From Myxococcaceae bacterium (GTDB lineage: Bacteria > Myxococcota > Myxococcia > Myxococcales > Myxococcaceae): 64,000 nt of DNA. The position numbers were made by a program, and so were the translations under genes. The notes below the pieces were generated by a model. The model did no database searches and was not told the origin of the DNA. It worked only from the letters and a program-made list of their open reading frames with translations. The stretch lies in NCBI GenBank assembly GCA_016793095.1, contig JAEUJQ010000060.1, positions 1 to 64,000 on the forward strand, read 5' to 3'. This document shows, piece after piece, positions 41,115 to 55,393 of the stretch (position 1 is the stretch's first letter; each line of letters opens with the position of its first letter).

Positions 41115-43832
41115 TCAGCCGCCCGGGTTGATGCCCGTGACGATGGTCGTGAGATCGAGCCCGCCGGTGTAGCCATAGCTGACGTACTCGTCGAAGCCGT
41201 ACACGGTCACGCCTGCGCCAGGCAGCGTCATCTGCCCTGGCTGGGGGATCACGAGGATGGTGTGCGTCCCCACCGGCACGGGCACGTTGGCCACCCGGAA
41301 CGCGGTGGAGCCGACGGCGTTGAAGCTCGTCATCGGCACCGCCGTGCCGTTCACCCGCACCTCGAGCACGCGGCTGCCGTCGATCACCAGGCCCAGGTAG
41401 TTGTCTCGCGTGCCCGGGGCGGTCAGCACGGTGTACTGGCTGCGCCACTGCTCGACCGGCGGAAGCAGAACCACCGAGGGGTCTCCCTGAGTCGGGTAGG
41501 CCGTGCCCACCACCGTCGTCGCGTTCTGGCTCGCGAAGATCTGGGCCACCTGGACCGGCTGATCGGCGGTGATGGTGAAGCTGGTCTTCGAGCGGAACTC
41601 GACGAAGGCGCCGCCTGCGAGCCTGCAGTTGTTCGCCGACAGCGAGCCCGAGAGGCACCGGTTCGGCGAGAGCACGTCGCCGGCCGCGGGCGGCGGCGTC
41701 AGGGTGACCGCGGTGCCGTTCGCGCACGCCGGGTTGCTGGTGGGGCAGCCGGCCACGATCTTGTAGTAGTCGGGCCCCGCGTTGCTCGCCGGCGCGAACA
41801 TGTTGTTCGACAACCGCAGCGGCGCGGTGCGCGTGGCCACGAAGTTGCGGCCCCAGGTCACGAAGGGGAAGAGCTGCTCCTCGACGTGATCGCACGCGGT
41901 GTCCAGGTGCCCGCGGGTGGTGCAGGCCGAGCCGCCGAACACGGCGATCGGCTTGTCGGCGGTGACGATGGTGCCTGTCAGATCGTTGTCCACCCGGCAG
42001 TGCTGGTTGCAGCAGGGGGGCGTGAAGAGGGTGCCGCAGGTGCCCTGGTTGTTCGAGCAACAGCAGGGCGGCTGAAAGAGACCGCCGCAGGTGCCGGGGG
42101 GCACGACGCAGGCCTGGCCGCTGATGCGGGTGGGGAGGAAGGGGTTGAGGCCGCACTCGAGGTTGATCGACGACGGCGTCGGGGAGGGGTTGTCGCTGGC
42201 GATCTGCAGGACGTCGTAGGTGTTGATGGTGAAGTCCTGCTGGGCGCCCCGGTTGAGGGCCACCACTCCCGGGCCGGCCCGCGTCCTCGCGCTCGCCCGC
42301 ACCGTCACGCGCGTGTTGTCCTGAGTGCCGACGATGGTGAGCATGGCGTTGAACGCGATGCTGGCGGCGCCGTTCGGATCGTTGCTGCCGGCGCGGTTCA
42401 TCACGTGCTCCGGCGTCAGCCCGACGTAGCTGAGCCCGAGGATGTGCGCGGGCAGCAGGAGCGAGGCGTCGTTGCTGTAGGCGAAGTGCCGACAGACGTT
42501 GCTCATGCACACCGGGTTCGCCGACTCGGGCACGGCGTTCTCGCACGTCGTCACCGAGGTGCACGCGCCGGTGTCGCGGAAGGCCGCCAGCGGGTTGAAC
42601 TGGTACACGGTGATCGGCCGCGTCGAGGTGATGCGGTAGCCGTAGCGCCGCAGTCCGCTCTGGGAGCTCGAGCCGACCCCGTTCGTCGACGTGGGGTGAT
42701 CACCGACCGACTGCCACGGCACGCGGATCACCGCGAGGCCACGGGTCATCGGATCCAGCCGACCGGGCACGGGCACCGACTTCACCATCTGGGTGGCGTT
42801 GTTGAAGAACCGCGAGACCGTCACCGTGGTCGCCAGCGTCGAGCGGTTCGTCACCACGAACGCGAACTCGGAGTCGTTGTTGAGCGCCCCCTGGCCCGTC
42901 AGCACGTTGCCCTTGAAGACCGCCGCCACCACCGGGTTGTCCATCACCGCGGTCCAGTACTCGCAGCCGAAGTAGCTCTTCTGGCGCACGGCATCTCCGC
43001 ACTCATCCACGCACGCGCCGTTCTGGCACTCCGCAGTCGGCCCGAGGCCCGGCACGGTGGTGCAGGTGACGTTGTCCCACCGGCCGGTGGCGTTGCAGGT
43101 CTGCTGCACGGCGGAGCTCATGCACTGGGTCGACCCGGGGATGCAGGTCGGCGGGACGCAGGCCGACTGGGCGGCGGTGCCCATGCACTGCTGGGTGATG
43201 CAGGTGCCGTCGAAGTTGTCGCCGACGTTCACCCAGGTGGTGGACAGGTTGAGCTGCGTGCGGCGCTGGCACTCCTGCACCGCCCTCCCGTCAGGGGAAC
43301 ACCGGCGCTCGCCAGCAGTGCACTCGCGGCACTCGCCCATGGTGCAGGTGGCCATGCCCGCGCACGTCACCGTGCGGAAGCCCGAGCCGTCCGTCTCGCA
43401 GACCTCGAGCTGGTTGGGCGCCGCAGCGCACTTCGTGGCGTTCGGGCGGCAGGTGAGGCAGCGCTCGTTCGAGCAGAACCCGTCAGGCTGCGGGCACGTC
43501 ACCTCGCTGGTGAAGCGGCCATCGGCGCCGCACAGCTCGACGGCGCTCCCGTTCACGCTGCAGCGCCGGGCGCCCTCGGTGCACGGCACGAAGACCGACG
43601 CGTCGGGCTGGGGTGGCTTCGGCTCGCACGTGCCCGCCAGCAGGTTGCAGCGCTGGCCGCTCCCGCAGTCGCCGTCGCGCTGGCAGACGAACCGGCACAT
43701 GCCGTTGACGAGCTTCTCGTTCGCTTCGCAGACCGGCCCCGCGTCGATGGGAGGCGGGGTGATCCGCGTGCGATCGGGGCAGCCGGTGACGCCCACGAGG
43801 AGGAGGCAGAGAAGAGGGAAGGAACCGCGCAT
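41115..43832 (-). CDS. IgGFc-binding-domain surface lipoprotein
   Basis: A 905-aa lipoprotein. The signal is MRGSFPLLCLLLVGVTGC. Residues 30-270 contain many Cys pairs in small repeats (CRFVCQRDGDCGSGQRC, CTAGERRC, CNATGRWDNVTC). From about 275 to the end runs the IgGFc-binding N-terminal domain: GCEYWTAVMDN, FAFVVTNRSTLATTVTV, ITSTRPITVYQFNPL, DASLLLPAHILG, LFPFVTWGRNFVATR and YVSYGYTGGLD. An inserted Cys-rich loop (PPCCCSNNQGTC, PPCCNQHC) is unusual. The family is widespread in Myxococcota; it probably mediates adhesion or contacts, since these bacteria have no natural IgG target. It follows aglZ on the same strand after 77 bases. Confidence 0.87.
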   Translation of the reverse strand: MRGSFPLLCLLLVGVTGCPDRTRITPPPIDAGPVCEANEKLVNGMCRFVCQRDGDCGSGQRCNLLAGTCEPKPPQPDASVFVPCTEGARRCSVNGSAVELCGADGRFTSEVTCPQPDGFCSNERCLTCRPNATKCAAAPNQLEVCETDGSGFRTVTCAGMATCTMGECRECTAGERRCSPDGRAVQECQRRTQLNLSTTWVNVGDNFDGTCITQQCMGTAAQSACVPPTCIPGSTQCMSSAVQQTCNATGRWDNVTCTTVPGLGPTAECQNGACVDECGDAVRQKSYFGCEYWTAVMDNPVVAAVFKGNVLTGQGALNNDSEFAFVVTNRSTLATTVTVSRFFNNATQMVKSVPVPGRLDPMTRGLAVIRVPWQSVGDHPTSTNGVGSSSQSGLRRYGYRITSTRPITVYQFNPLAAFRDTGACTSVTTCENAVPESANPVCMSNVCRHFAYSNDASLLLPAHILGLSYVGLTPEHVMNRAGSNDPNGAASIAFNAMLTIVGTQDNTRVTVRASARTRAGPGVVALNRGAQQDFTINTYDVLQIASDNPSPTPSSINLECGLNPFLPTRISGQACVVPPGTCGGLFQPPCCCSNNQGTCGTLFTPPCCNQHCRVDNDLTGTIVTADKPIAVFGGSACTTRGHLDTACDHVEEQLFPFVTWGRNFVATRTAPLRLSNNMFAPASNAGPDYYKIVAGCPTSNPACANGTAVTLTPPPAAGDVLSPNRCLSGSLSANNCRLAGGAFVEFRSKTSFTITADQPVQVAQIFASQNATTVVGTAYPTQGDPSVVLLPPVEQWRSQYTVLTAPGTRDNYLGLVIDGSRVLEVRVNGTAVPMTSFNAVGSTAFRVANVPVPVGTHTILVIPQPGQMTLPGAGVTVYGFDEYVSYGYTGGLDLTTIVTGINPGG

Positions 43833-43909: not shown

Positions 43910-46900
43910 CTACTCGCCCAGCTTGTCGATGATGCTGGTGAAGTCGGCGTCGTCGTCCTTGGCGGCGGGCAGCTGGCCCACCACCGTGCGGTCCTCGGTC
44001 TGCGCCGGGCGCTTCGGGGCCTGGGCGGTGATCGACACCGCCGGCCGCGCGGGCTGGGTGGCGGGCCTGGCCGGAGCCGGCTTCCCGGCGGCGGCAACGG
44101 CGGGCCGGGTGGCGGCGTCGGGAATGGTGTTGACCTTGGTGGCCTCCTCGAACTCCTCGCCGAGCTGAGACAGCGACGCCGCGGCCGAGCGCTGGGCGTT
44201 CGGGACGGTGGTGTGAGGCACCCCAGCCGGGGGCGCCGGGCGCGCGGCGGCCGGAGCCGAGCTGGCCGCCCCACCCGCGGGCTTGTTCTTGTACCGGGCG
44301 AGCTCGAGCTCGACGACCTTGAGCTGCTTCGACTTCTCCTGCACCGCCTCCTGCAGGCGCTTGACCTCCTGGGCCTTGAGCTGCTCGCGGCGCTCGAGCT
44401 CTGCCTTGTGCTTGGTGTTGTTGTCCTCGAGGGCCTTGTGCTGGGCGCCCTCGAGCGTCTTCTTCTCGGCGATCGAGGCCTGCAGCTTGGCGGCGGCGTC
44501 GTTGGCCTTCTGCTCGGCGGCGGTGATCTTCGCCTGCAGCTCCTTCTCGGCGCGGGTGCGGGCGGCGTTGGCGCCCTCCATGGCCTGCTCGAGCTCCGAG
44601 ACGCGGCGCTGGCGGGTGGCGAGCTGGTGCTGGGCCTCCTTGAGGCGCGTCTCCATCTCGCCGAGCTTCGTCTGCAGCTCCTGCTGCACCTGGGCGATGC
44701 GCGCCTCGGCCCGCTGGAGCTTCTGGCCGGCCTCGTCGAGCGCCTTCTTCCCGCTGGCCTTCTCCTGGTTGAGCGCGTTGCCAGCCTCCTGCAGCCGCGC
44801 GTTCGCCTGCTGGAGCTGCTGGGTGAGCTGCGCCTTCACCTGGTCGCGCTCGGCGACCGCGTGCTGCTGGGCCTCGGTGAGCTTCTCGAGGGCGCCGCTC
44901 TTCTCGACGAGCTCCTTCTTCGCCGCGTCGAGCTCGGCGGCCAGCGCGGCCTTCGAGTGGGCGAGCTCGTCGGTCTTCTTCTTCGACTCGTCGAACAGCG
45001 ACTTGAGCTTGAGCTCGAGCTGCTTCGAGAGCTCGGTCTTGGCGGTGACCTCGCGGGTGAGGGCGTCGACCTGGCGCACCTTCTCCTGCTGCTGGGTGGA
45101 GAGCTTGCGCAGGGTGTCGGCGAGCTCCTTCGACTTGGTCGCGACGTCGTTCTGGAGCAGCTCCTCGCGCCGCTGCGACTCCTCCGAGAGGGTGGCGATG
45201 CGATCTTCGAGGTTGGCGCGGGTGTCTTCGGCGTGCGCCAGCTTGGCGTTGAGCTGGGTGAGATCCGAGACGCGGGCGCCGAGCTCCTGCTTGGTGGCGG
45301 CGAGCTGCTCGGTGAGATCCTGGGCCTGCTCGCGGGTCTGCGCGAGGTCGGCCTCGAGCGTGGTGATGCGCTCCTCGTAGTGCTTCTGCGTGTCCGCGTG
45401 CGCGCGCTTCTCGATGTCGAGGGACTTCGAGGTGTCGTCGAGGTTGGCGCGGGTGGCGGCGAGATCGACCTGGGTCGCCTCGAGCTTGCCCGCCAGATCG
45501 TCGCGCTGGGCGGTGAGCGTGCCGATCGTCTCGGTCGTCTCCTTGTCGAGCTGGGCGTGCGCGGCCGCCTCGGCCTCGTAGTTGCCTTGCGCCTCCGAGA
45601 GGGCGGTCTTGAGCTGGCCGATCTCGCCCGACAGCGTCTCCTCGAGCTGAGCCTTGGCGGCCTCGGTCTGGCGGAACAGGCCGGTGACGCGCTGGATCTC
45701 GTTGCGCGCGGCCACCACCTCGGCGGTCCGTTCGTCGCGCTCCTTGCGGGTGGAGTCGAGATCGAGCTGGGTGCGCTCGAGGGTGCCGGCGGTCTCTTCC
45801 TGCTCGCCCGTCTTCGCCTCGAGGGCGGCCTGGGTCTGGTTGAGCGTGTCCTGGGTCTGCAGGAGCGCGCGCTGCGTCTCGTCGAGGGTGGTGCTGAGGC
45901 GGGCAATGTTCTCGTCGCGCTCGGCGACGGCGGCCTGCAGCCCCTGGATCTCGGTGCCGCGCGCGTCGAGCGTCTGCTTGAGCGCGGCGATCTCGCCGTC
46001 CCGGTCGGCGATCGTCTGCTGCGCGTGTGAGAACCTGCCCTCGAGATCCTGAATGCGGCCGTCGCGATCGGCGACGTCGGCGTTGAGGCCGTCGATGGTG
46101 CTCTGCCGCTGCTCGAGCGTCTGGTTGAGCTCGGCGATGGTGGCGGTGTTCGCCTGGATGACGCCCTGGGCCTCCTGCAGCTGGCCGCCGACGTCTCCCA
46201 GCTCGCCCTGCAGCTCGGCTTCGCGGTCGGCCAGGGCCTGCTTGGCCGCCTCGACCTCGCCCTCGAGCTCGCCGATCTTCTCGAGCTTCTCCTGGATCTG
46301 CGACTGGAGCTCGGCCTCCTGGCGATCCTTGCGCTCGACCGTGTCGGCCAGCTCTTGCTCGAGGTGTTGAACGCGGCCGTCGCGTTCGCCGATCTTCTCG
46401 TTGAGGCTCTGCTCGGACTCGGCCCTGGCCTGCTCGAGCGCCTCGAGGTTGCCCTTGAGCCCCGCGACCTCACCCTCGAGCTCGCCGATCTTCTCGGCGG
46501 CGCGGGCCCTCGCTTCAGACAGCTCTCCCTCGAGCCGCGCGACCTCGGCCTCGCCGCGATCGCCGCGCTCCGTGGCCAGGCGCAGGTTGCTCTCGAGCTG
46601 CTGCACGGTGCCGTCGCGCTCGGCCTGGTTCTTGTCGATCGTCTCCTGCAGCGCCTTCCCGATGCCCTCGTACTCGGCGTACTTCGCGTCGCGGTCGGTG
46701 AGCGTGTCCTGGTGCGTCTTGCCGAGGTTCTCGAGGTCGGCCTTGAGCTGCGTGATCTCCTCGCCGCGGGTGGCGACGGTGCCCTGCAGCTCCTTCTCCT
46801 TCACCTCGAACTCGAGGGTGGCGAGCTGGTAGTCCTTCTCGAGGGCCTCGTAGTCCTTCCGCTGCTGCTCGAGCTCGCCGTTCTTCCGGTTCAGCTCCTC

Positions 46901-47926
46901 TTCGCGGGTGTTGAGCTCCTTGCGGAGGCCGTTGATGTCCTTCTCCTTGGCGGAGACGACCTCGATGACCTCCTTCTCTCCGATGAACTTCTGCAGCAGC
47001 AGATCCTCGACCTGTCGGCCGTGCTCGCGCTCCTTCTCGACGAGCGTGTTCTGCGCCTCGTTCAGGCGACGGGTGAAGTCGTCGACCTGCATCTTGAGGC
47101 CCTGGATCTCGACGTCCTTCTCCTGGATCCGATCCTCGACCGAGAGCAGCTCGCGCTCGCGCACGGTCCAGATCTCGGACAGGCGGGCGATCTGAGCCTC
47201 GCGCGTCTTCAGCTCGTCGCGCAGGATCTGGATCTTGGCCTCGGGCGTGCCGAGCATGTCGCGGCGGGGCGCGCTGCGCCGCAGCTCTCGCGACTCGGCG
47301 AGGAGCTCGGCCTTTCGGTCGGCGATCGACTGGAAGGCGCGATCGAGGAAGGCGCGATCTTCGTCGGTGAGCTGCGAGCGGCGCTCACGGCGGGGCAGCC
47401 TGGGCGGACCGCCAGCGGCTGTCTTGAGTGGCGGCGGGCCACCCACTGCGGGGATCTCGACGGTGGGCCCTGCGCCGGTGAGCGCGTTGTCCATCGCCGC
47501 GTCTTCTTCTTCCGAGGTCGTCGAGGGGTTGTTCTGCGCGGTCGAGGGCTGGCCCGGGGGCGCGATGGTGGTGCTCAGCCGCGTCAGCTCGCTCATCTCG
47601 AAGGGGATCGCGAGGTAGCCGTGGGCTGCGTTTGGAGACGCCGCGTGCTGCTGGAGCGCCTCCACCGGCGACTCGCTCGACAGCAGGATCACCGGCAGGT
47701 TCTGACCGAACTTGCCCTTCCGAATGGCTCCGCAGACGACGAAGCCGCTCTGGTCGGGCAGCTCGGCGCGAAGCACCACCAGATCCGGTCGGCGCTTCTC
47801 CAGCTCGCGGGTGGCTTCCGACGCGCTGGTCGCCAGGCTGGTCTGGTAGCCGGCGTCCTTCAGCACCGACGCCATGGTCAGGGCGAAGTCGTTCTGGCTT
47901 TCGACGATGAGAACTCGGCGCTCCAT
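43910..47926 (-). CDS. aglZ: AglZ-like protein: pseudo-receiver with very long coiled coil
   Basis: A 1338-aa cytosolic protein. Residues 1-125 have a receiver fold (VLIVESQNDFALTMASVLKD) but a degenerate pocket: Arg53 replaces the phospho-acceptor Asp (VVLRAELP), Glu9-Ser10 replace the acidic pair, and Ile107 replaces the conserved Lys (YLAIPF). A Pro-rich spacer is followed by about 1000 residues of coiled coil (from about 185), and the last 100 residues are Pro/Ala-rich. This is the architecture and size of Myxococcus AglZ, which links the Frz/MglA polarity system to the Agl-Glt gliding machinery; FrzS is much shorter. Assignment is by architecture. Confidence 0.8.
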   Translation of the reverse strand: MERRVLIVESQNDFALTMASVLKDAGYQTSLATSASEATRELEKRRPDLVVLRAELPDQSGFVVCGAIRKGKFGQNLPVILLSSESPVEALQQHAASPNAAHGYLAIPFEMSELTRLSTTIAPPGQPSTAQNNPSTTSEEEDAAMDNALTGAGPTVEIPAVGGPPPLKTAAGGPPRLPRRERRSQLTDEDRAFLDRAFQSIADRKAELLAESRELRRSAPRRDMLGTPEAKIQILRDELKTREAQIARLSEIWTVRERELLSVEDRIQEKDVEIQGLKMQVDDFTRRLNEAQNTLVEKEREHGRQVEDLLLQKFIGEKEVIEVVSAKEKDINGLRKELNTREEELNRKNGELEQQRKDYEALEKDYQLATLEFEVKEKELQGTVATRGEEITQLKADLENLGKTHQDTLTDRDAKYAEYEGIGKALQETIDKNQAERDGTVQQLESNLRLATERGDRGEAEVARLEGELSEARARAAEKIGELEGEVAGLKGNLEALEQARAESEQSLNEKIGERDGRVQHLEQELADTVERKDRQEAELQSQIQEKLEKIGELEGEVEAAKQALADREAELQGELGDVGGQLQEAQGVIQANTATIAELNQTLEQRQSTIDGLNADVADRDGRIQDLEGRFSHAQQTIADRDGEIAALKQTLDARGTEIQGLQAAVAERDENIARLSTTLDETQRALLQTQDTLNQTQAALEAKTGEQEETAGTLERTQLDLDSTRKERDERTAEVVAARNEIQRVTGLFRQTEAAKAQLEETLSGEIGQLKTALSEAQGNYEAEAAAHAQLDKETTETIGTLTAQRDDLAGKLEATQVDLAATRANLDDTSKSLDIEKRAHADTQKHYEERITTLEADLAQTREQAQDLTEQLAATKQELGARVSDLTQLNAKLAHAEDTRANLEDRIATLSEESQRREELLQNDVATKSKELADTLRKLSTQQQEKVRQVDALTREVTAKTELSKQLELKLKSLFDESKKKTDELAHSKAALAAELDAAKKELVEKSGALEKLTEAQQHAVAERDQVKAQLTQQLQQANARLQEAGNALNQEKASGKKALDEAGQKLQRAEARIAQVQQELQTKLGEMETRLKEAQHQLATRQRRVSELEQAMEGANAARTRAEKELQAKITAAEQKANDAAAKLQASIAEKKTLEGAQHKALEDNNTKHKAELERREQLKAQEVKRLQEAVQEKSKQLKVVELELARYKNKPAGGAASSAPAAARPAPPAGVPHTTVPNAQRSAAASLSQLGEEFEEATKVNTIPDAATRPAVAAAGKPAPARPATQPARPAVSITAQAPKRPAQTEDRTVVGQLPAAKDDDADFTSIIDKLGE

Positions 47927-48001
47927 GAGGCCCTTTTTCTTCAGAGGAAACGAACGCGGCGGGTCAGTCTGCTACGGCGACCCGGCCCGGTAAACCTGCA
48001 T

Positions 48002-51000
48002 CTACGTGTCGCGGCCGGGCATGGTCGTCGGGGGAACGTGGCGGGTGAAGAGCTGCGATTGCGGTGGGCAGTAGCCGTGGACGAGCTGGGCGAACCAGGG
48101 GTCGAGGCGCGAGGGTGGGGGCGTCGCCGACGTGTCGAGCGAGTGGACGTGGGAGTCGATCTCCTCGTGCTCGTCCTGCTCGTCATGGAGCGAGGCGAAC
48201 GACTCGTCGTTCACCATCTCGACCTCGTCGTCCTGCACCTCCTCGATGTCTTCTGCGGCCCGGGTCAGCACGGGAGCGCCGGTGGCTCCGGGGACGAGCC
48301 GCACCAGCGGCGGCAGGGCGGCCGCGAGCTCGGGGGCCGGCTTCTCGCGCAACGCCGGCGGGCCCATGGGCGGTGGACTCGAGGGCAGGGCTCTCGCGCC
48401 GCTCGGAGACGACGCGGGGCCCATGAGGGGGGGTGGACGTACGGCGCTCGCGGGGGAGGCTCCCCCGGCGGCCTCGCTCGTTGGCAGGACCTTCACGCCG
48501 CTCGGAGACGAGGTTGGGCCAGCGAGGGGGGGCGGACGTACGCCGCTCGCGGAGGAGGCTCCTCCGGCAGAGTCGCCCGTCGGCAGCGGCGTCGAAGGTG
48601 GGCCCGCGAGGGGTGGCGGACGTACGGCACTCCCGGAGGAGGGTCCGGCAGAGTCGCCCGACGGCAGCGGCGCCGAAGCTGGCCCCGCGAGAGGTGGCGA
48701 ACGCACGGCGCTCGCGGAGGAGGCTCCTCCGGCAGAGTCGCCCGACGGCAGCGGCGCCGAAGCTGGCCCCGCGAGAGGTGGCGAACGCACGGCGCTCGCG
48801 GCGGAGGCTCCGGCAGCCTCGCCCGACGGAAGAGGCTTCACGCCGCTCGGCGACGAGGCTGGCCCCGCGAGGGGTGGCGGACGCACGGCGCTCGCGGCGG
48901 AGGCTCCGGCGGCCTCGCCCGACGGCAGAGGCTTCACGCCGCTGGGCGACGAGGTTGGCCCCGCGAGGGGGGGCGGACGCACCGGCGACGCACCATTGGA
49001 GGGAGGTGCGTCACCCGGCCCGGACTGTGCGGCAGGCGCCGACGGGCGGGCGACCGGGAGGGCCCCATCGAAGGCGAGCGGCACCCGTGCGGGCGTCGTG
49101 GTGACGGAGACGCCCACCGGCACCGGGACGAAGGTCGCGCCAGGTGGCGAGGTGGCTGGCCTCGTCGGCAGCGAGAAGGAAGTGGGGACGGGGATGGGCA
49201 CCGGGGCTGGCGCGCGAGGAGCGCTCATCGGGTTGGGCGCCGTGATCTCGGGGGCGGGAACGGGGGCGCGCGCGGCAGTGGCCGGCTTCAACAGCGATGG
49301 GAGATCGAGCGGCTCGTCATCCAGCGGGAGGCTGCTGGCGCCCGTGGCCGATGCCGGGAGCGATGCTGGTGGGGCAGGGGCCGGGGGAGGGGACGGTTCA
49401 GGCGGAGAGGGGCGGGTCGGCAGGGCGTCCGACAGGGTCGACTCAGGCGAGACGGATGGTGCGCCTGGGGGCCGCTCGGAGGGCGACGGCGCCGGCGGTT
49501 CGGTCTCCGGCCGCTGGGCCTCGGGTGCGCGAGGGGGAGCGGTGGACGAACGTGGTGGCCGGGTCGCCGGCTCGGAAGGCCCCGGCTCCTCATCGGGAAC
49601 GGGGGGCCCTTCTCTCGGCGGCGGCGCTTCGACCGCCTCCGCGTCCGGGAGCTGATCGCTGACGGGCAACCCCATGACGATCGGCGGCTCCCTGGCCACC
49701 ACCACCGCCGGGTCCGTGGGCTCGGGCGGGACCGGCGGGCCCTCGTCGCGGAGCAGCACCCCCATCACCGGAGGCCGCTCGCGGGCGACCGCCTGATCGG
49801 TGCCGGTGTCGGCTTCGGGCGGTGGGGCGACCAGCGCCGGGTCGGTCTTCACCTTGTTGGTGCCGGGATCCGACCCGGGGACAGGGATCGGCAGCGGCAC
49901 GCCCGCCTGGGTGACGTCGCCGGTCTCGTCAGGTGGGCGGCCCCCGAGCTGGGTCGCCTCCGAGGGGTCGATGCTCGCGGCGTCTTCGGGGGCGCGGGCC
50001 TGCGGCGCCACCCGTTGGTAGAGCGAGATCAGGGCTTGTCGGATGATCTGGGTGTCGATCGGCGTCGTCGCCGCCCGCGCCGCTTCGCCCAGCGTTCGTC
50101 GCAGCGCTGGATCGGTCGCGAGCGCGTCGATCGCCTCGGCCAGCGCCGCAGAGTCAGAGACTCGATAGAAGCGCGCCGCGTCGGGTGGCACGAGCTCGCG
50201 GGTGAGCGGCAGATCCGCGGCGATGATCGGCCGGCCGGCCGCGAGGAACTCGCCGATGCGGGCGAGCGCCGTGGTGGTCGAATTGCGCGGGTCGCCCGTC
50301 AGCGTCAGCACGCCCACGTCCGCGGCGGCGAGCACCTTGTGAATGTCGTCGTGCGCCACGGGCTCCTGGAACTCGACCCGCTCTTCGAGCTTCAGCTCGG
50401 CGACGCGCTCCTTGAGGGGTGGCGTCAGCTCGGGCGCGCTCGGGCCCACCAGCGCCAGCTTCACCGCCGCCTTCGTCTTCGTCAGCGCCTCGAACAAGAC
50501 GGGTAGATCCTGGTGGCGCCCGTGGCTGCCGAGGTGCAAGAGCCGCATGGGCTGGCCATCGGGTTTGCCCATCACCTCGGGCGAATAGGGGGCGAGATCG
50601 ACGGGGGCCCGCAGCACTTCGATGTGATCGCCGGGCACGCCGAGCGAGATGCAGTGGGCCCTGGCGGCGTGGCTGCCGACCACCACCGCGTCAGCGTTCA
50701 TCAGGCAGAACAGCTCCTGCCGACGCGACCGCGCGAGCAGCCGCTTGTTCGAGCCCTCCTGCGGGAGCAGGGACGGGAGATCGCCCGAGGGGAATCGGCA
50801 CGCGTCGTAGACGAGCTTGTAGCCGAAGTCGCCGCGGCGCTCGCACAGCGGGTACCCGCTCACCGGATCGAAGAAGTGGACGATCAGGTACTCTTCGCTC
50901 TCGAGCTGTCGCCGCACCGCGCGATCGAAGGCCTCCATGCGCGTTCGCAGGTCGCCGCTCCCCACCGGCACCCGGAGCAGCCTGGCGCCATGGAACCGCT

Positions 51001-51154
51001 CGATGTGCGAGTGGTCGGGCGTCTTCACCGACAGCACGACCGTCTGATACCGCTCGTTGAGGCCCTTCAGGTACTCGCTCAGGCGTCGCGACGTGGCATG
51101 TGGCGCCGGCACCACGTCGAAGCAGCAGAAGAGCACTCTCGGCAGCTCACTCAA
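48002..51154 (-). CDS. GT4-type glycosyltransferase fused to a long Pro-rich repetitive tail
   Basis: About 1050 aa. Residues 1-385 are a GT-B glycosyltransferase: VLFCCFDVVPAPHATSRRLS, FDPVSGYPLCERRGDFGYKL, RLLHLGSHGRHQDLPVLFEA, VLAAADVGVLTLTGDPRNST, and EFLAAGRPIIAADLPL. The rest is disordered and Pro/Ala/Ser-rich, with eight tandem units (SAVRPPPLAGPASSPSG type). It ends with an acidic segment (EDIEEVQDDEVEMVNDE) and a short globular-looking end, RLDPWFAQLVHGYCPPQSQL. I favour the TTG at 51154 because the longer ATG frame (51235) overlaps the divergent start; this is uncertain. It lies directly upstream of aglZ. Confidence 0.8.
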   Translation of the reverse strand: MSELPRVLFCCFDVVPAPHATSRRLSEYLKGLNERYQTVVLSVKTPDHSHIERFHGARLLRVPVGSGDLRTRMEAFDRAVRRQLESEEYLIVHFFDPVSGYPLCERRGDFGYKLVYDACRFPSGDLPSLLPQEGSNKRLLARSRRQELFCLMNADAVVVGSHAARAHCISLGVPGDHIEVLRAPVDLAPYSPEVMGKPDGQPMRLLHLGSHGRHQDLPVLFEALTKTKAAVKLALVGPSAPELTPPLKERVAELKLEERVEFQEPVAHDDIHKVLAAADVGVLTLTGDPRNSTTTALARIGEFLAAGRPIIAADLPLTRELVPPDAARFYRVSDSAALAEAIDALATDPALRRTLGEAARAATTPIDTQIIRQALISLYQRVAPQARAPEDAASIDPSEATQLGGRPPDETGDVTQAGVPLPIPVPGSDPGTNKVKTDPALVAPPPEADTGTDQAVARERPPVMGVLLRDEGPPVPPEPTDPAVVVAREPPIVMGLPVSDQLPDAEAVEAPPPREGPPVPDEEPGPSEPATRPPRSSTAPPRAPEAQRPETEPPAPSPSERPPGAPSVSPESTLSDALPTRPSPPEPSPPPAPAPPASLPASATGASSLPLDDEPLDLPSLLKPATAARAPVPAPEITAPNPMSAPRAPAPVPIPVPTSFSLPTRPATSPPGATFVPVPVGVSVTTTPARVPLAFDGALPVARPSAPAAQSGPGDAPPSNGASPVRPPPLAGPTSSPSGVKPLPSGEAAGASAASAVRPPPLAGPASSPSGVKPLPSGEAAGASAASAVRSPPLAGPASAPLPSGDSAGGASSASAVRSPPLAGPASAPLPSGDSAGPSSGSAVRPPPLAGPPSTPLPTGDSAGGASSASGVRPPPLAGPTSSPSGVKVLPTSEAAGGASPASAVRPPPLMGPASSPSGARALPSSPPPMGPPALREKPAPELAAALPPLVRLVPGATGAPVLTRAAEDIEEVQDDEVEMVNDESFASLHDEQDEHEEIDSHVHSLDTSATPPPSRLDPWFAQLVHGYCPPQSQLFTRHVPPTTMPGRDT
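48370..49000. repeat. Tandem in-frame repeats, 84-96 bases each
   Basis: About eight units coding 28-32 residues (SAV.SPPLAGPASAPLPSGD.AGGASSA) lie in the glycosyltransferase tail. Two adjacent units with a period of 84 bases (around 48660-48720 and 48744-48804) look identical at the DNA level, which suggests recent expansion. It is not a CRISPR, because repeats and spacers are not distinct and the frame is kept. Confidence 0.8.
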
Positions 51155-51233
51155 GCAGCTTCGGATGATGCCACGTTGACCGCCACTGGACTGAATGAGA
51201 AACGCACGGGCCGTGACGGGTCGCGGCTGGACC

Positions 51234-51449
51234 ATGCGAGAGCTCTTGACGGCCGCCCGGGAGCGGTTTGGCCCCGACGCGGCGCGCTACAAGACGCGTC
51301 AGGAGCTGCTGCTCGCGCTCGGGCTCGCCGACGGTGGGGAGCCCGGCGACGCTCCTGTCCTTCCCCCGGCGACCGCCCCGCAGGCGGCTCCCGAGGCGCC
51401 CGGTCAGGTCGAGCTCGTGGTGAAGGACTTCTTCCTGCCGCCGCGCTGA
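51234..51449 (+). CDS. Small conserved-looking protein
   Basis: A 71-residue protein starting MRELLTAARERFGPDAARYK followed by TRQELLLALGL, a compact amphipathic helical unit. A Pro/Ala-rich linker and an end QVELVVKDFFLPPR follow. The ATG at 51234 is favoured because the helical domain begins there; an upstream in-frame ATG at 51195 is possible. The function is unknown. It lies between two divergent larger genes and 30 bases before the TPR protein. Confidence 0.6.
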   Translation: MRELLTAARERFGPDAARYKTRQELLLALGLADGGEPGDAPVLPPATAPQAAPEAPGQVELVVKDFFLPPR

Positions 51450-51479
51450 ATCGTCACCGGACTCCGCCAGCCCTTGGGT

Positions 51480-53477
51480 ATGGTGCCGCGCGTGGCGGGA
51501 CGGCTGAACAAGCGCAAGGCAGCGGCGCAGCTCGATCAGGCCCGCCTGCTGGCGCAGACCGGCGCGTGGGAGCGCGTGCTGGTCGCGCTCGCCCCCGCGC
51601 TCGAAGCGAAGGTGCTGCCCGCGACCGAGGCCGAGAGCTTGTACGCCGAAGCGCTCGAGCGGCTGGGTCGGAAAGCCGAGGCCCGCGCCTTCCTCGAGAA
51701 GGCCCTCACCACGCGCAAGGACGATCCCAACCTCACCGCGCGCCTGGGCATCCTGCTGGTCCACGCGAACGAGTCGGCGCGGGGCGTCGAGCTCATGTCG
51801 CGGGTGCGGCACCAGCTCAAGCGCGAGCCCACCTTCCTCACCAACTACGCCGCTGCCCTGCTGAAGCTGGGGCGGGTGGACGAGGCCGAGACCGCGCTCG
51901 CCACGGCGATGCTGACCGGCGGCGGCGATGACACGCGGCTCGTCTTCGCGCTGGCAAAGGCCCAGAAGGGCGACGCGACGGGCGCCGAAGCCATCGCGAT
52001 TCAGATCGGCACCCAGTCGAAGGACGCCCACCTGCGCGCGACCGCCCGCGCGATCGAGGCCGACTGCCGGCTGATGCAGGGAGACGCGCGCGGGGCGCTC
52101 GAGCGGTTTCGCGCCCTCGACGCGGAAGGGCGGCTCGAGGCCGATCACCTGCCGCACGCCGCCCTCGCCGCTCAGTTGGCCGGGGACGAGACGCTCGCGA
52201 ACGCCCTCATCCAGCGGCGGGGCGCCAGCGCGTCGGCCGAAGATCGGCTGCTCTTCGCCCAGGTGGCCTTGAGCCGGAGCCGCCCCATCGACGCGCTCTT
52301 CGAGCTCGACCAGGCGGCGAAGGCCGTGGGCGAGAAGCTGCCGGGGTACGAGTACGAGGCCAGCGTCGCGAGGGGCCGCGCCCTGCGCCTGCTCGGACGC
52401 GCCAGTGACGCGCGGGCGCAGATCGAACGGGCGAAGGCGATGCCCGAGGCCGAGCTCAAGCTGCTCGGCGCCCGCGTCTGGCTCGAGCTGGGGCACCTCG
52501 GCGCCGAGGCCGGTGACTTCGAGCTGGCCGACGCCGCGTTCGCCCGGGCGCTCGAGCTCGATCCCAACGAGGCCGAGGCCCGGCTGGCCCGCCAGTCGTC
52601 GTCGCGCAAGACGGCGTGGAAGACCGAGCTCAAGCAGTCGTCCGAGGCGCGGCTCGAGGCGGTGAAGTCGGAGGCGGAGGCCATGAAGCGGCGCTTCCTC
52701 GCGCGTGAGGGAGAGCTCGAGCAGATGCGGCGAGAGCTCCAGCGCCTGAAGTCCCTGTCTGCGGACGCCGAGCAGCGCGCGCAGGAGCTCGAGCGCGAGG
52801 CGAAGAAGGTGAAGGACGAGCAGGCCCGGCGGCTCCGCGAGGAGCTCGAGGCGCAGGAGCGCGACTCCGAGGAGAAGGCTCGCGAGGTCGTCGATCAGGC
52901 CCTCGGCGCGGCGTTGTCAGCATGCCCGGACACGCTGCTCCGCATGGTGCTGGTGGCCGAGCGGACGTACCAGAAGGGCCTGTACTCCGAGCTGCCCGCC
53001 GCCGCGGTGGCCGTGCTCTTCTCAGGCGCGCTCGAGCGGAGCCTCTTCCTGCTCCTCGTGCAGCGCTTCAACGAGTGGCTCGAGCAGCACGATCGCCGGG
53101 CGCAGTTCCTCAAGGGGGCGATCCGCGAGAAGCGGGGGCGTCGGGTCGAGTACTTCGATCGCTTCGTCGAGGCCTTCGACCGATCGCTCGACGCGAAGGC
53201 GCCGTCGCTCGGAGAGGTGAGCCGTGCGTTGAGCCGCCGTCGCGAAGCGCCGCTGGCTGACTTCAACGCGTTCCTGCAATCGACCGGGCTGGGCGACGGC
53301 TTCCTCGACGCGCTCGCGGGCTTCGTTCAATCGGCCAAGGAGCGCCTGCGGGATCCCGTCGCGCACGGCCTCGCGATCGATCTGAGCTGGGACGAGCTGA
53401 GGGACTTCCGCAAGGCGTTCCTCCTCGAGTTCCGAGCTGGCCCCGGCGTGCTCGCCCAGCTGCTGGGAGGCTCGTGA
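51480..53477 (+). CDS. TPR-repeat protein with coiled coil and helical C-terminal domain
   Basis: A 665-aa cytosolic protein. Residues about 15-360 are TPR-like helical pairs (ARLLAQTGAWERVLVALAPA, YAEALERLGRKAEARAFLEK, FELADAAFARALELDPNEAE). Residues 375-475 form a coiled coil (EAMKRRFLAREGELEQMRRE). The last 185 residues are a helical domain (LSACPDTLLRMVLVAERTYQ, EWLEQHDRRAQFLKGAIREK). TPR proteins are scaffolds, so a part in a multi-protein assembly is likely. Start is ATG 51480, with TTG 51474 possible. The next gene overlaps by four bases. Confidence 0.75.
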   Translation: MVPRVAGRLNKRKAAAQLDQARLLAQTGAWERVLVALAPALEAKVLPATEAESLYAEALERLGRKAEARAFLEKALTTRKDDPNLTARLGILLVHANESARGVELMSRVRHQLKREPTFLTNYAAALLKLGRVDEAETALATAMLTGGGDDTRLVFALAKAQKGDATGAEAIAIQIGTQSKDAHLRATARAIEADCRLMQGDARGALERFRALDAEGRLEADHLPHAALAAQLAGDETLANALIQRRGASASAEDRLLFAQVALSRSRPIDALFELDQAAKAVGEKLPGYEYEASVARGRALRLLGRASDARAQIERAKAMPEAELKLLGARVWLELGHLGAEAGDFELADAAFARALELDPNEAEARLARQSSSRKTAWKTELKQSSEARLEAVKSEAEAMKRRFLAREGELEQMRRELQRLKSLSADAEQRAQELEREAKKVKDEQARRLREELEAQERDSEEKAREVVDQALGAALSACPDTLLRMVLVAERTYQKGLYSELPAAAVAVLFSGALERSLFLLLVQRFNEWLEQHDRRAQFLKGAIREKRGRRVEYFDRFVEAFDRSLDAKAPSLGEVSRALSRRREAPLADFNAFLQSTGLGDGFLDALAGFVQSAKERLRDPVAHGLAIDLSWDELRDFRKAFLLEFRAGPGVLAQLLGGS

Positions 53478-54064
53478 GGAAGCGCCTCGTCGTGCTGCTC
53501 CCGGGCTTCAACGGCGACGCGCGCCAGCCGCTCCTCGTGCGCGTGGGGCAGGCGCTGGGCGCCCGACACTTCACGTGCCGGTTTCCGGGCTTGCCGGGAG
53601 GTCGCCCGTCACCAGGCCTCGGCGACGAGGTGGCGTTCCTCGCGAAGAAGCTGCCGCCGCGCGCCGCTCCGATCCTCGTGGGCAGGTCCTTTGGCGGTCG
53701 GGTGGCGCTGCGCTACGCGAACGTGAAGCGGGTCTCCGCGGTGGTGCTGCTCGGCTTCCCGGTTCGCCCAGCGGGCCGGGTCCGGCCAGACGACGAGGCC
53801 GCGCTGCTCACGGTGCGGGTGCCGACCTTGATCGTCCAGGGTGACGCCGACGAGAAGGGCCCGCTCGACGTGTTGGCGCCGATCGTCGCGAGGAACCCGT
53901 GGTTGACGCTCCTCGTGCTGGCCGGCGCGGGGCACTCGTTTGGCCGGCACGAAGCGCGCGCGGTGTCCCTCGCCAGGGTCTTCATCGCGGCGCGGGGCCG
54001 GCGCGCTGGCAGCTCCACACGTCCGGGCCGGGCTCGCAGGCCTGGTGGACGCGCGCGCACCTGA
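53474..54064 (+). CDS. Alpha/beta-hydrolase family protein
   Basis: A 196-aa hydrolase of the KANL3/Tex30-like (small dienelactone-hydrolase-type) group. Motifs are VVLLPGFNGDARQPLL, the nucleophile elbow GRSFGGRVALRYA (Ser in G.S.GG), the acid region LIVQGDADEKGPLDVL, and His in GAGHSFGRHEARAV. The substrate is unknown. The start is GTG overlapping the TPR gene stop, and the C-terminal 30 residues are a basic Arg/Gly tail (RRAGSSTRPGRARRPGGRAR). Confidence 0.85.
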   Translation: MRKRLVVLLPGFNGDARQPLLVRVGQALGARHFTCRFPGLPGGRPSPGLGDEVAFLAKKLPPRAAPILVGRSFGGRVALRYANVKRVSAVVLLGFPVRPAGRVRPDDEAALLTVRVPTLIVQGDADEKGPLDVLAPIVARNPWLTLLVLAGAGHSFGRHEARAVSLARVFIAARGRRAGSSTRPGRARRPGGRART

Positions 54065-54081
54065 CACGGCATAAGGCGCTC

Positions 54082-54750
54082 ATGGTGTCGTCCTTTGTCC
54101 TGCTCTCGCTCCTGTCCGGTCTGCCCGCCCTCAAGCCGCTGCAGCCGCCGCTCGCCCTCTTCTCAGCCGAGCTGCTGGTCGACTCGAAGCTGATGAGCCC
54201 GCAGAACGGAGACGACTTCCTCGTCTATGGGGGCGAGCAGTGCCCCGGGCGTGGGGTCTCGATCATGCGCTCCATGGGCGGGGCGCTGACCACGATCGAG
54301 CGCGTGCAGGCCTGGTTCAAGGAGAACCCGGGCGCCGAGGCGGCCCTCTTCAAGAAGGACACGCTGGCGCAGGCGATGAGACACGTGAGCGCTGGCGTGC
54401 CGTCGTCGTGGGTGCCCTGCAAGCCGTGGGCGGCGAACGAGTGGCAGTTCGCGCCCACCGATCCCGGCAGGTTGTGCGACCCGAAGAAGCCCCCCTCGCC
54501 GACCGAGCGGTACCTCCTGGTGAAGGGCAGGGCTTCGTCGGCGATCCAGGTCCGCCCGGCCGCCGACCCGTGCATGCCGCGCGTGTCGATCGCGCTGTTC
54601 GATCAGAAGGGCAAGACGCGCCTGCTGGTGCACGCGGACTTCGGAGGCGCGATGTCGGCGACGGTCGTGGGCGACAAGTGCCGGGTGGACTTCACGTATG
54701 ATCCGTCGGTCGAGGCGTTCAGGGCCGACTGGAAGGCCTGCAAAGGCTGA
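54082..54750 (+). CDS. Exported hypothetical protein
   Basis: A 222-aa protein with a hydrophobic leader (MVSSFVLLSLLSGLPALKPL). The mature part has six Cys (EQCPGRGV, PCKPWAAN, RLCDPKKP, DPCMPRVS, DKCRVDFT, WKACKG), suggesting three disulfides. No family is recognised. It follows the hydrolase gene by 17 bases and precedes a YciO-type gene, all on the plus strand. Confidence 0.65.
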   Translation: MVSSFVLLSLLSGLPALKPLQPPLALFSAELLVDSKLMSPQNGDDFLVYGGEQCPGRGVSIMRSMGGALTTIERVQAWFKENPGAEAALFKKDTLAQAMRHVSAGVPSSWVPCKPWAANEWQFAPTDPGRLCDPKKPPSPTERYLLVKGRASSAIQVRPAADPCMPRVSIALFDQKGKTRLLVHADFGGAMSATVVGDKCRVDFTYDPSVEAFRADWKACKG

Positions 54751-54775
54751 GGCTTTCGGCTACAGCCTGTGCGCC

Positions 54776-55393
54776 ATGACGTCGCCTGCCCCCATCCTCG
54801 AGGTCGATGCACAGAACCCGCAGCCGCGCATCGTCGAGCGGGCCGCGAAGGTCCTGGAGGACGGAGGGCTGATCGCCTACCCGACCGACACCTACTACGG
54901 CATCGGGTGCGATCTGCTGTCGCGAAAGGCGATCGATCGGCTGTACGGCGTGAAAGGCCGCGATCGGAAGAAGCCGCTCGCCTTCCTCTGCCCGGACCTC
55001 TCCGACGTGGCGAAGTACGCGATCGTGAGCAAGTTCGCCTACCGCACGATGAAGCAGCTGACGCCAGGGCCCTTCACGTTCGTGCTGAACGCGACGCGGC
55101 TGGTGCCTGACATGATGCAGTCGAAGCAGCGCGAGGTGGGCATTCGCGTGCCGCAGGCGCCCCTGATGCTGGCGATCGCCTCGCGCCTGGGCCGGCCGAT
55201 CGTCACGACGTCGGCCACCGATCAAGACGGGACGGTGCTGATCGACGCGAAGGACATCAAGGAGCACCTCGGGTCCCGGCTCGATCTGATCCTCGACGGC
55301 GGCGTGCAGCCCAACGAGCCCTCGACGATCGTCTCGCTGGTTGACGATCACCTCGAGGTGCTCAGGCAGGGGAAGGGCATCATCGTCGCCTGA
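54776..55393 (+). CDS. yciO: Sua5/YciO/YrdC family protein (YciO type)
   Basis: A 205-aa YrdC-like protein: AYPTDTYYGIGCDLLS, the nucleotide and carbamoyl pocket residues KGRDRKKPLAFLCPDLSDVA, TPGPFTFVLNATR, GIRVPQAPLMLAIASRLG, and TTSATDQDG. The family makes threonylcarbamoyl-AMP for tRNA t6A37; the KPLAFLC.DLSD wording is closer to YciO than to TsaC, and YciO's exact role is less certain. The start is the ATG at 54776; the longer in-frame reading overlaps the preceding gene. Confidence 0.9.
   Translation: MTSPAPILEVDAQNPQPRIVERAAKVLEDGGLIAYPTDTYYGIGCDLLSRKAIDRLYGVKGRDRKKPLAFLCPDLSDVAKYAIVSKFAYRTMKQLTPGPFTFVLNATRLVPDMMQSKQREVGIRVPQAPLMLAIASRLGRPIVTTSATDQDGTVLIDAKDIKEHLGSRLDLILDGGVQPNEPSTIVSLVDDHLEVLRQGKGIIVA

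Follow-up and report, generated by a model that had tools for sequence, protein, structure and literature searches.

Within the 64,000-nucleotide stretch of Myxococcaceae DNA analysed here (the window), a minus-strand gene at 48002–51154 encodes a 1050-residue protein consisting of a glycosyltransferase (GT) domain and a long, disordered tail. The open frame on this strand extends over 48002–51235 (1077 aa), and we place the start at a TTG at 51154. Of 26 related loci, 25 carry an initiation codon in the equivalent column (17 TTG, 7 GTG and 1 ATG); the 26th, L099, has a GTG one codon upstream, and 14 of the 26 offer no alternative start in the ~40 codons preceding the column. The GT is present at E ≤ 1e-30 in 38 of 60 genomes of the order and its substitutions within the genus are mostly synonymous, showing that the gene is more than a chance open frame, while a plus-strand ORF that overlaps it (46355–50506) is probably a shadow of the high GC content. 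A single further GT match, with 37% identity over 112 residues, was found in the same genome. The first-pass annotation had described a GT-B enzyme fused to more than 600 disordered residues, and this architecture is borne out by the AlphaFold model, in which residues 1–383 (50006–51154, minus strand) form a GT-B domain and the 667 residues that follow (384–1050) are predicted to be disordered, with 631 of the 1050 residues having a pLDDT below 50.

The next gene on the minus strand, separated from the GT stop codon by a gap of 75 bp (47927–48001), is an aglZ-type gene (43910–47926, 1338 aa); the GT gene thus lies upstream of aglZ in the sense of transcription, at higher window coordinates, as had been proposed. 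Its product combines an N-terminal receiver domain (PF00072, 51.2 bits against a cut-off of 30.2) with a heptad-rich coiled coil that, judged from heptad content, is very long, unlike that of FrzS, whose receiver (2gkg, E 5.6e-13) is the closest PDB receiver of a named relative. Besides itself, the protein has only receiver-domain matches in its own genome. In Myxococcus xanthus the coil of AglZ comprises 1076 residues as against 235 in its paralogue FrzS, and the receivers of both proteins lack a working phosphorylation site, according to the accessible part of the published description (PMC4546325). We therefore liken the window gene to M. xanthus AglZ by layout, that is, by its receiver plus long coiled coil. 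No terminator-like site was found at 47700–51700, where a scan for promoter and terminator consensus sequences returned nothing; GT and aglZ are presumably co-transcribed. Past aglZ, the next gene on the same strand (41115–43832) encodes an IgGFc_binding-type protein (PF17517, E 3e-53), which follows aglZ in several relatives as well. Upstream of the GT gene, a divergent block of TPR, alpha/beta-hydrolase and Sua5/YrdC genes (51474–55393) is kept in the genus as well as by several further genomes, and is mostly missing from the named Myxococcus and Corallococcus loci.

The tail is Pro-rich and tandem-repetitive, and its only element in the AlphaFold model is a short, low-confidence helix at residues 1019–1025. 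Alignment places an array of short motifs (RPPVMGVLL ... PPIVMGLPV, ~30 residues apart) after the GT domain, at residues 455–500 (49655–49792, minus strand). It is followed by a variable Pro/Ala/Ser-rich linker at residues 501–960 (48275–49654, minus strand), recognisable by low column identity, disorder and tandem repeats of 84–165 bp at 48397–48987, and by an acidic patch, likewise anticipated from the first reading, at residues 966–1005 (48140–48259, minus strand). Over most of the linker column identity is only 0.05–0.4, compared with 0.6–0.9 in the GT domain and 0.80 in the last 25 residues. Uncorrected pN/pS ratios among six sequences of the genus are 0.34 for the GT domain, 0.53 for the VMG array, 0.58 for the linker and 0.54 for the acidic patch, and in a wider set of 22 sequences they are 0.53, 0.79, 0.82 and 0.81, respectively. 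By these sequence measures, most of the tail is weakly constrained. Its length in the complete, motif-bearing genes read here ranges from 192 residues (L067) to about 1,300 (L229), and since both length and repeats vary, the repeats of the linker are likely to reflect mere slippage.

At least two copies of the PPVVMGLPL-type (VMG) motif occur in 17 of the 22 sequences, one copy in two and none in three; the corresponding DNA pattern gave four matches in four genomes, three inside the GT gene and one elsewhere (G012:C1:1253251), and none in G028. The VMG array is a second, weaker feature of the tail and carries little weight in our reading, its ratio within the genus being hardly better than that of the linker. 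Seven draft contigs of Corallococcus and Myxococcus (L089, L090, L092, L096, L100, L101 and L103) stop within ~1.2 kb past the GT domain, which suggests that assemblies tend to break in the repetitive tail.

The short end of the protein, which had looked conserved at first reading, proved to be the most constrained segment of the gene. This C-terminal motif (DPWFAQLVHGYCPPQSQLFTRHVPPTTMPGRDT, residues 1013–1050, 48005–48118, minus strand) has a pN/pS of 0.09 within the genus and 0.34 among the 22 sequences; both lie below the corresponding values for the GT domain, indicating stronger purifying selection on the tail end than on the enzyme. Slippage was rejected as an explanation for the last 36 residues. 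Their consensus reads DPWFAQLxHGYCPPExxxFxRHTPPTTFPGRD, with the Trp and the Gly-Tyr invariant. When used as a query, the 39-residue tail end matched 28 of the 60 genomes of the order at E < 1e-7, in one place each. A broader profile, built to take in divergent forms (D.W[LF]..[LI][VL].G[YF].P), matched 35 of the 60 at E ≤ 1.2e-6, again in one place per genome, the next best match anywhere having an E of 0.009; 22 of these 35 genomes supplied rows of the profile and hence match by construction, and the other 13 did not. The pattern GYCPPE has no match in the window's own genome because the motif reads PPQ there.

The motif also occurs apart from the GT. In G017 and G053, drafts of 93% and 89% completeness, aglZ is directly preceded by an ORF for a short acidic protein with the motif at its end, and neither the surrounding region nor the genome (at E ≤ 1e-10) yielded a GT. 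In G049 the motif lies at the edge of a contig, and genome searches found neither GT nor aglZ. The GT-less proteins of G017 and G053 show that the motif acts as a module, whether or not AglZ is its partner. Many AglZ C-termini (window 43910–43960 and others) carry the pattern D-[DA]-[WF]-T-[AS]-[LI]-[VI]-D-x-L-x-K, loosely resembling D-P-W-F-A-Q-L-V in the GT tail; that the two might share a docking site is a guess from sequence.

To see how widely GT and aglZ are found together, we searched 60 genomes of the order, using the GT domain alone as the query for the former. The GT domain was detected in 39 of them at E ≤ 1e-10 and an AglZ-type receiver in 48 at E ≤ 1e-13. With cut-offs of 1e-30 for GT and 1e-24 for AglZ, both were present in 37 genomes, GT only in one, AglZ only in ten and neither in 12 (Fisher p 4.9e-6, treating genomes as independent and ignoring kinship); common descent alone could account for this order-wide co-occurrence. 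We also compared 41 rows, the window and 40 fetched loci; in 32 of them the GT gene is followed on its own strand by aglZ, at a distance of 15–281 bp. The remaining nine comprise three cases at a contig edge (L044, L064 and L069), two loci of family f9 whose AglZ lies on a separate contig (L071 and L072), the G038 locus (L074) and three distant GTs (L078–L080). Among the named loci, which overlap the 41 rows and are not independent of them, 26 of 37 have the pair, and contig ends cut short nine of the 11 misses, all but L113 and L117.

The pair was seen in Myxococcus eversor, M. dinghuensis, Corallococcus praedator, Archangium violaceum, A. lansinium, Hyalangium versicolor and Citreicoccus inhibens, so that it recurs in all five of these genera, and it is found in uncultured Myxococcales as well; five further chosen genomes of Myxococcus/Citreicoccus type all show the pair, on one strand, together with the motif. 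Myxococcus xanthus AM003 (L103) has the GT, and its contig breaks off within the tail, so the pair is not visible there. Conservation of the pair had been set beforehand as the test of the first-pass annotation, to be failed if both the pairing and the tail were lost in relatives, and we found both kept across Myxococcales.

We tentatively favour, at somewhat less than an even chance, a reading of these sequences in which a GT4-type glycosyltransferase is made together with AglZ and held by its tail at a partner in the gliding system. The disordered Pro-rich linker, free to vary in length, would act as a tether, and the 36-residue motif, a short Trp-bearing helix and then HGYCPPE...F.RHTPPT..PGRD, would be the docking peptide. 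Its partner would most likely be AglZ or a different cytosolic protein of the MglA/AglZ gliding complex, with AglZ as the first candidate in view of the operon and the GT-less motif proteins, and docking would bring the GT to gliding complexes. Docking, the choice of partner, localisation, catalysis and any effect on slime or motility are all presumed parts of this reading. A comparison of motif-bearing with motif-less genomes yielded 28 separating AglZ columns, which are scattered, with three in the receiver, and gave no candidate surface.

Several genomes depart from the pairing. At least four distinct ones (G011, G025, L114 and L116) have a GT adjoining aglZ and no motif; aglZ occurs with neither GT nor motif in G026 and in families f5 and f6, the ORF upstream of aglZ in f5 presumably encoding a MoxR-type AAA protein; in G010 the GT and aglZ are on different contigs and the motif is absent; and in f9 (G043 and G052) the two genes are on different contigs or apart. 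In G038 (f4; L074:5548–7539) the GT also lacks the motif, and the gene immediately after it codes not for AglZ but for a REC-DUF4388-DnaJ-TPR protein. These exceptions count against a strict link between GT, motif and aglZ. The proposal of a cytosolic scaffold linking polysaccharide synthesis to the gliding machinery is upheld in part: a tether ending in a docking peptide is well supported by the low pN/pS of the motif and by the GT-less proteins beside aglZ; binding of the motif to AglZ, a scaffold role and a part in polysaccharide or slime formation are hypothetical.

Outside the order, 16 genomes match the GT at E ≤ 1e-50, and no AglZ-type receiver was found beside the GT in the 14 of them that were fetched, some of whose contigs end soon after the gene. 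The GT family is thus older than its link to aglZ. These GTs have disordered-looking tails with other repeated motifs. Family f13 (L211, L212, L214, L215, L216, L221 and, in part, L213) has GT tails of 170–250 residues and no AglZ-type gene nearby; its tails carry LLGGPP[FY] in six of seven cases and a.WQ... (.WQV-type) motif in all seven. An adaptable peptide tail therefore seems typical of the GT family as a whole, with the Myxococcales form going with aglZ.

The age of the family, the gene that takes the place of aglZ in G038 and the genomes in which GT and aglZ are apart or the motif is missing would all be expected if an ordinary envelope glycosyltransferase merely shared an operon with aglZ by descent, its motif binding, for example, a polysaccharide complex or a membrane protein. 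We consider such unlinked neighbours a rather unlikely explanation, since the motif stays beside aglZ in G017 and G053, genomes in which no GT was found, and since the different tail motifs of GTs in other orders imply that the C-terminal motif goes with the aglZ neighbourhood.

GT4-type Pfam matches above the curated cut-offs (PF13692, 52.5 bits against 27; PF13579, 44.5 against 29.7; PF00534, 43.2 against 26.4) span residues ~49–390 of the 1077-aa frame and cover both the N- and C-terminal halves, and structure comparison returned 6kih_A (Z 38.2, rmsd 2.6, 363 residues aligned) and 3c4q_B (Z 37.3). The GT-B fold is common to the GT and to the GT4 enzymes MshA, sucrose-phosphate synthase Tll1590, HepE, BshA and, by NCBIfam, EpsE; the window GT differs from them in its replaced donor-phosphate Arg and Lys, its 667-residue tail and its scores for NCBIfam equivalogs, which are under every cut-off (the best being EpsE, NF041876, with 41.9 bits against 400). 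At the two positions that we take to be the counterparts of the MshA donor-phosphate-site Arg and Lys, 27 of 33 sequences have Ser and 28 have Gln, respectively. Of the EX7E pair, the first Glu is absent and the second is present in 27 of 33, so the residues expected of a canonical active GT4, the donor-phosphate Arg/Lys and both Glu, are not kept as a set. The residue replacements make GT activity uncertain and, with the lack of an NCBIfam equivalog, lead us to label the protein as GT4-like GT-B rather than as a canonical active GT4; it belongs there by sequence family and predicted fold, and its catalysis is putative. Many genomes of Myxococcus/Corallococcus type (G022, G028, G035, G084 and others) contain a second, weaker relative of the GT (E about 1e-65), in a frame of ~410–490 aa that is mostly without a long tail.

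The replaced residues, the loss of the first EX7E Glu and the better conservation of the N-terminal half of the domain would suit a pseudo-enzyme, a GT-B domain whose catalysis is lost or changed and whose role is to bind, at one end of the tether. We think this unlikely, because K/R at 299 (32 of 33) and E/D at 302 (31 of 33) are retained, UDP-sugar enzymes match the fold along the whole domain, and some GT4 enzymes work without the Arg/Lys pair. Least probable is self-regulation by a motif that folds back on its own GT domain, with the adjacency of aglZ incidental: motif and GT are usually one chain and weak docking is compatible with the AlphaFold models, but neither of two models, one with a natural 225-residue tail, packs the motif confidently on the GT (in both it is a short, low-confidence helix in a disordered tail), and G017 and G053 have the motif without the GT.

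Docking by such a tail has a precedent in the gliding system. RomR consists of a folded domain, a Pro-rich disordered linker and a C-terminal helix, of which W394 is needed for MglC binding, according to the available portion of one study (PMC12719032). The GT protein resembles it in having a folded N-terminal domain, a long disordered Pro-rich linker and a short C-terminal helix with a Trp; its N-terminal domain is GT-B, whereas that of RomR is a receiver, so the likeness is one of layout and not of membership. Pro-rich peptides are also bound in gliding by the GYF-type domain of GltJ. A GltJ-like domain of this type could read the Pro-rich tail of the GT, although the segment conserved in that tail is the C-terminal motif, and the Pro-rich linker for the most part is not.

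No glycosyltransferase is named as a component of the AglZ/Agl-Glt gliding complex in the accessible portions of the literature on the M. xanthus complex. Searches for AglZ with glycosyltransferase, for disordered Pro-rich glycosyltransferases and for AglZ with slime, which covered titles and abstracts and mostly left subscription papers outside, brought up no recognisable description of the GT gene. Nor did a search with similar coverage find any paper naming MXAN_2989, 2990, 2992 or 2993, tags that we guessed for the neighbour of aglZ, taking AglZ to be MXAN_2991. It is possible, if doubtful, that the tail rather than the enzyme is central here, and that it (an acidic stretch followed by W..LxxGYxPPE..F.R..PPT..PG) constitutes an undescribed, Myxococcales-specific docking module tied to aglZ, stand-alone or fused to a GT.

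The part that slime or surface glycan plays in gliding is not settled: slime aids adhesion by the Glt complex (PMC7310880), and phase-bright trails are furrows in the agar (PMC12288465), as far as the available parts of these two reports go. A conserved GT beside AglZ offers, in the model M. xanthus, a concrete gene for that question, and at its end is a peptide, small at 36 residues, that is under stronger constraint than the protein's own catalytic domain. If the peptide is indeed a docking module, it would constitute a direct molecular link from sugar-polymer synthesis to the bacterial focal-adhesion motor.
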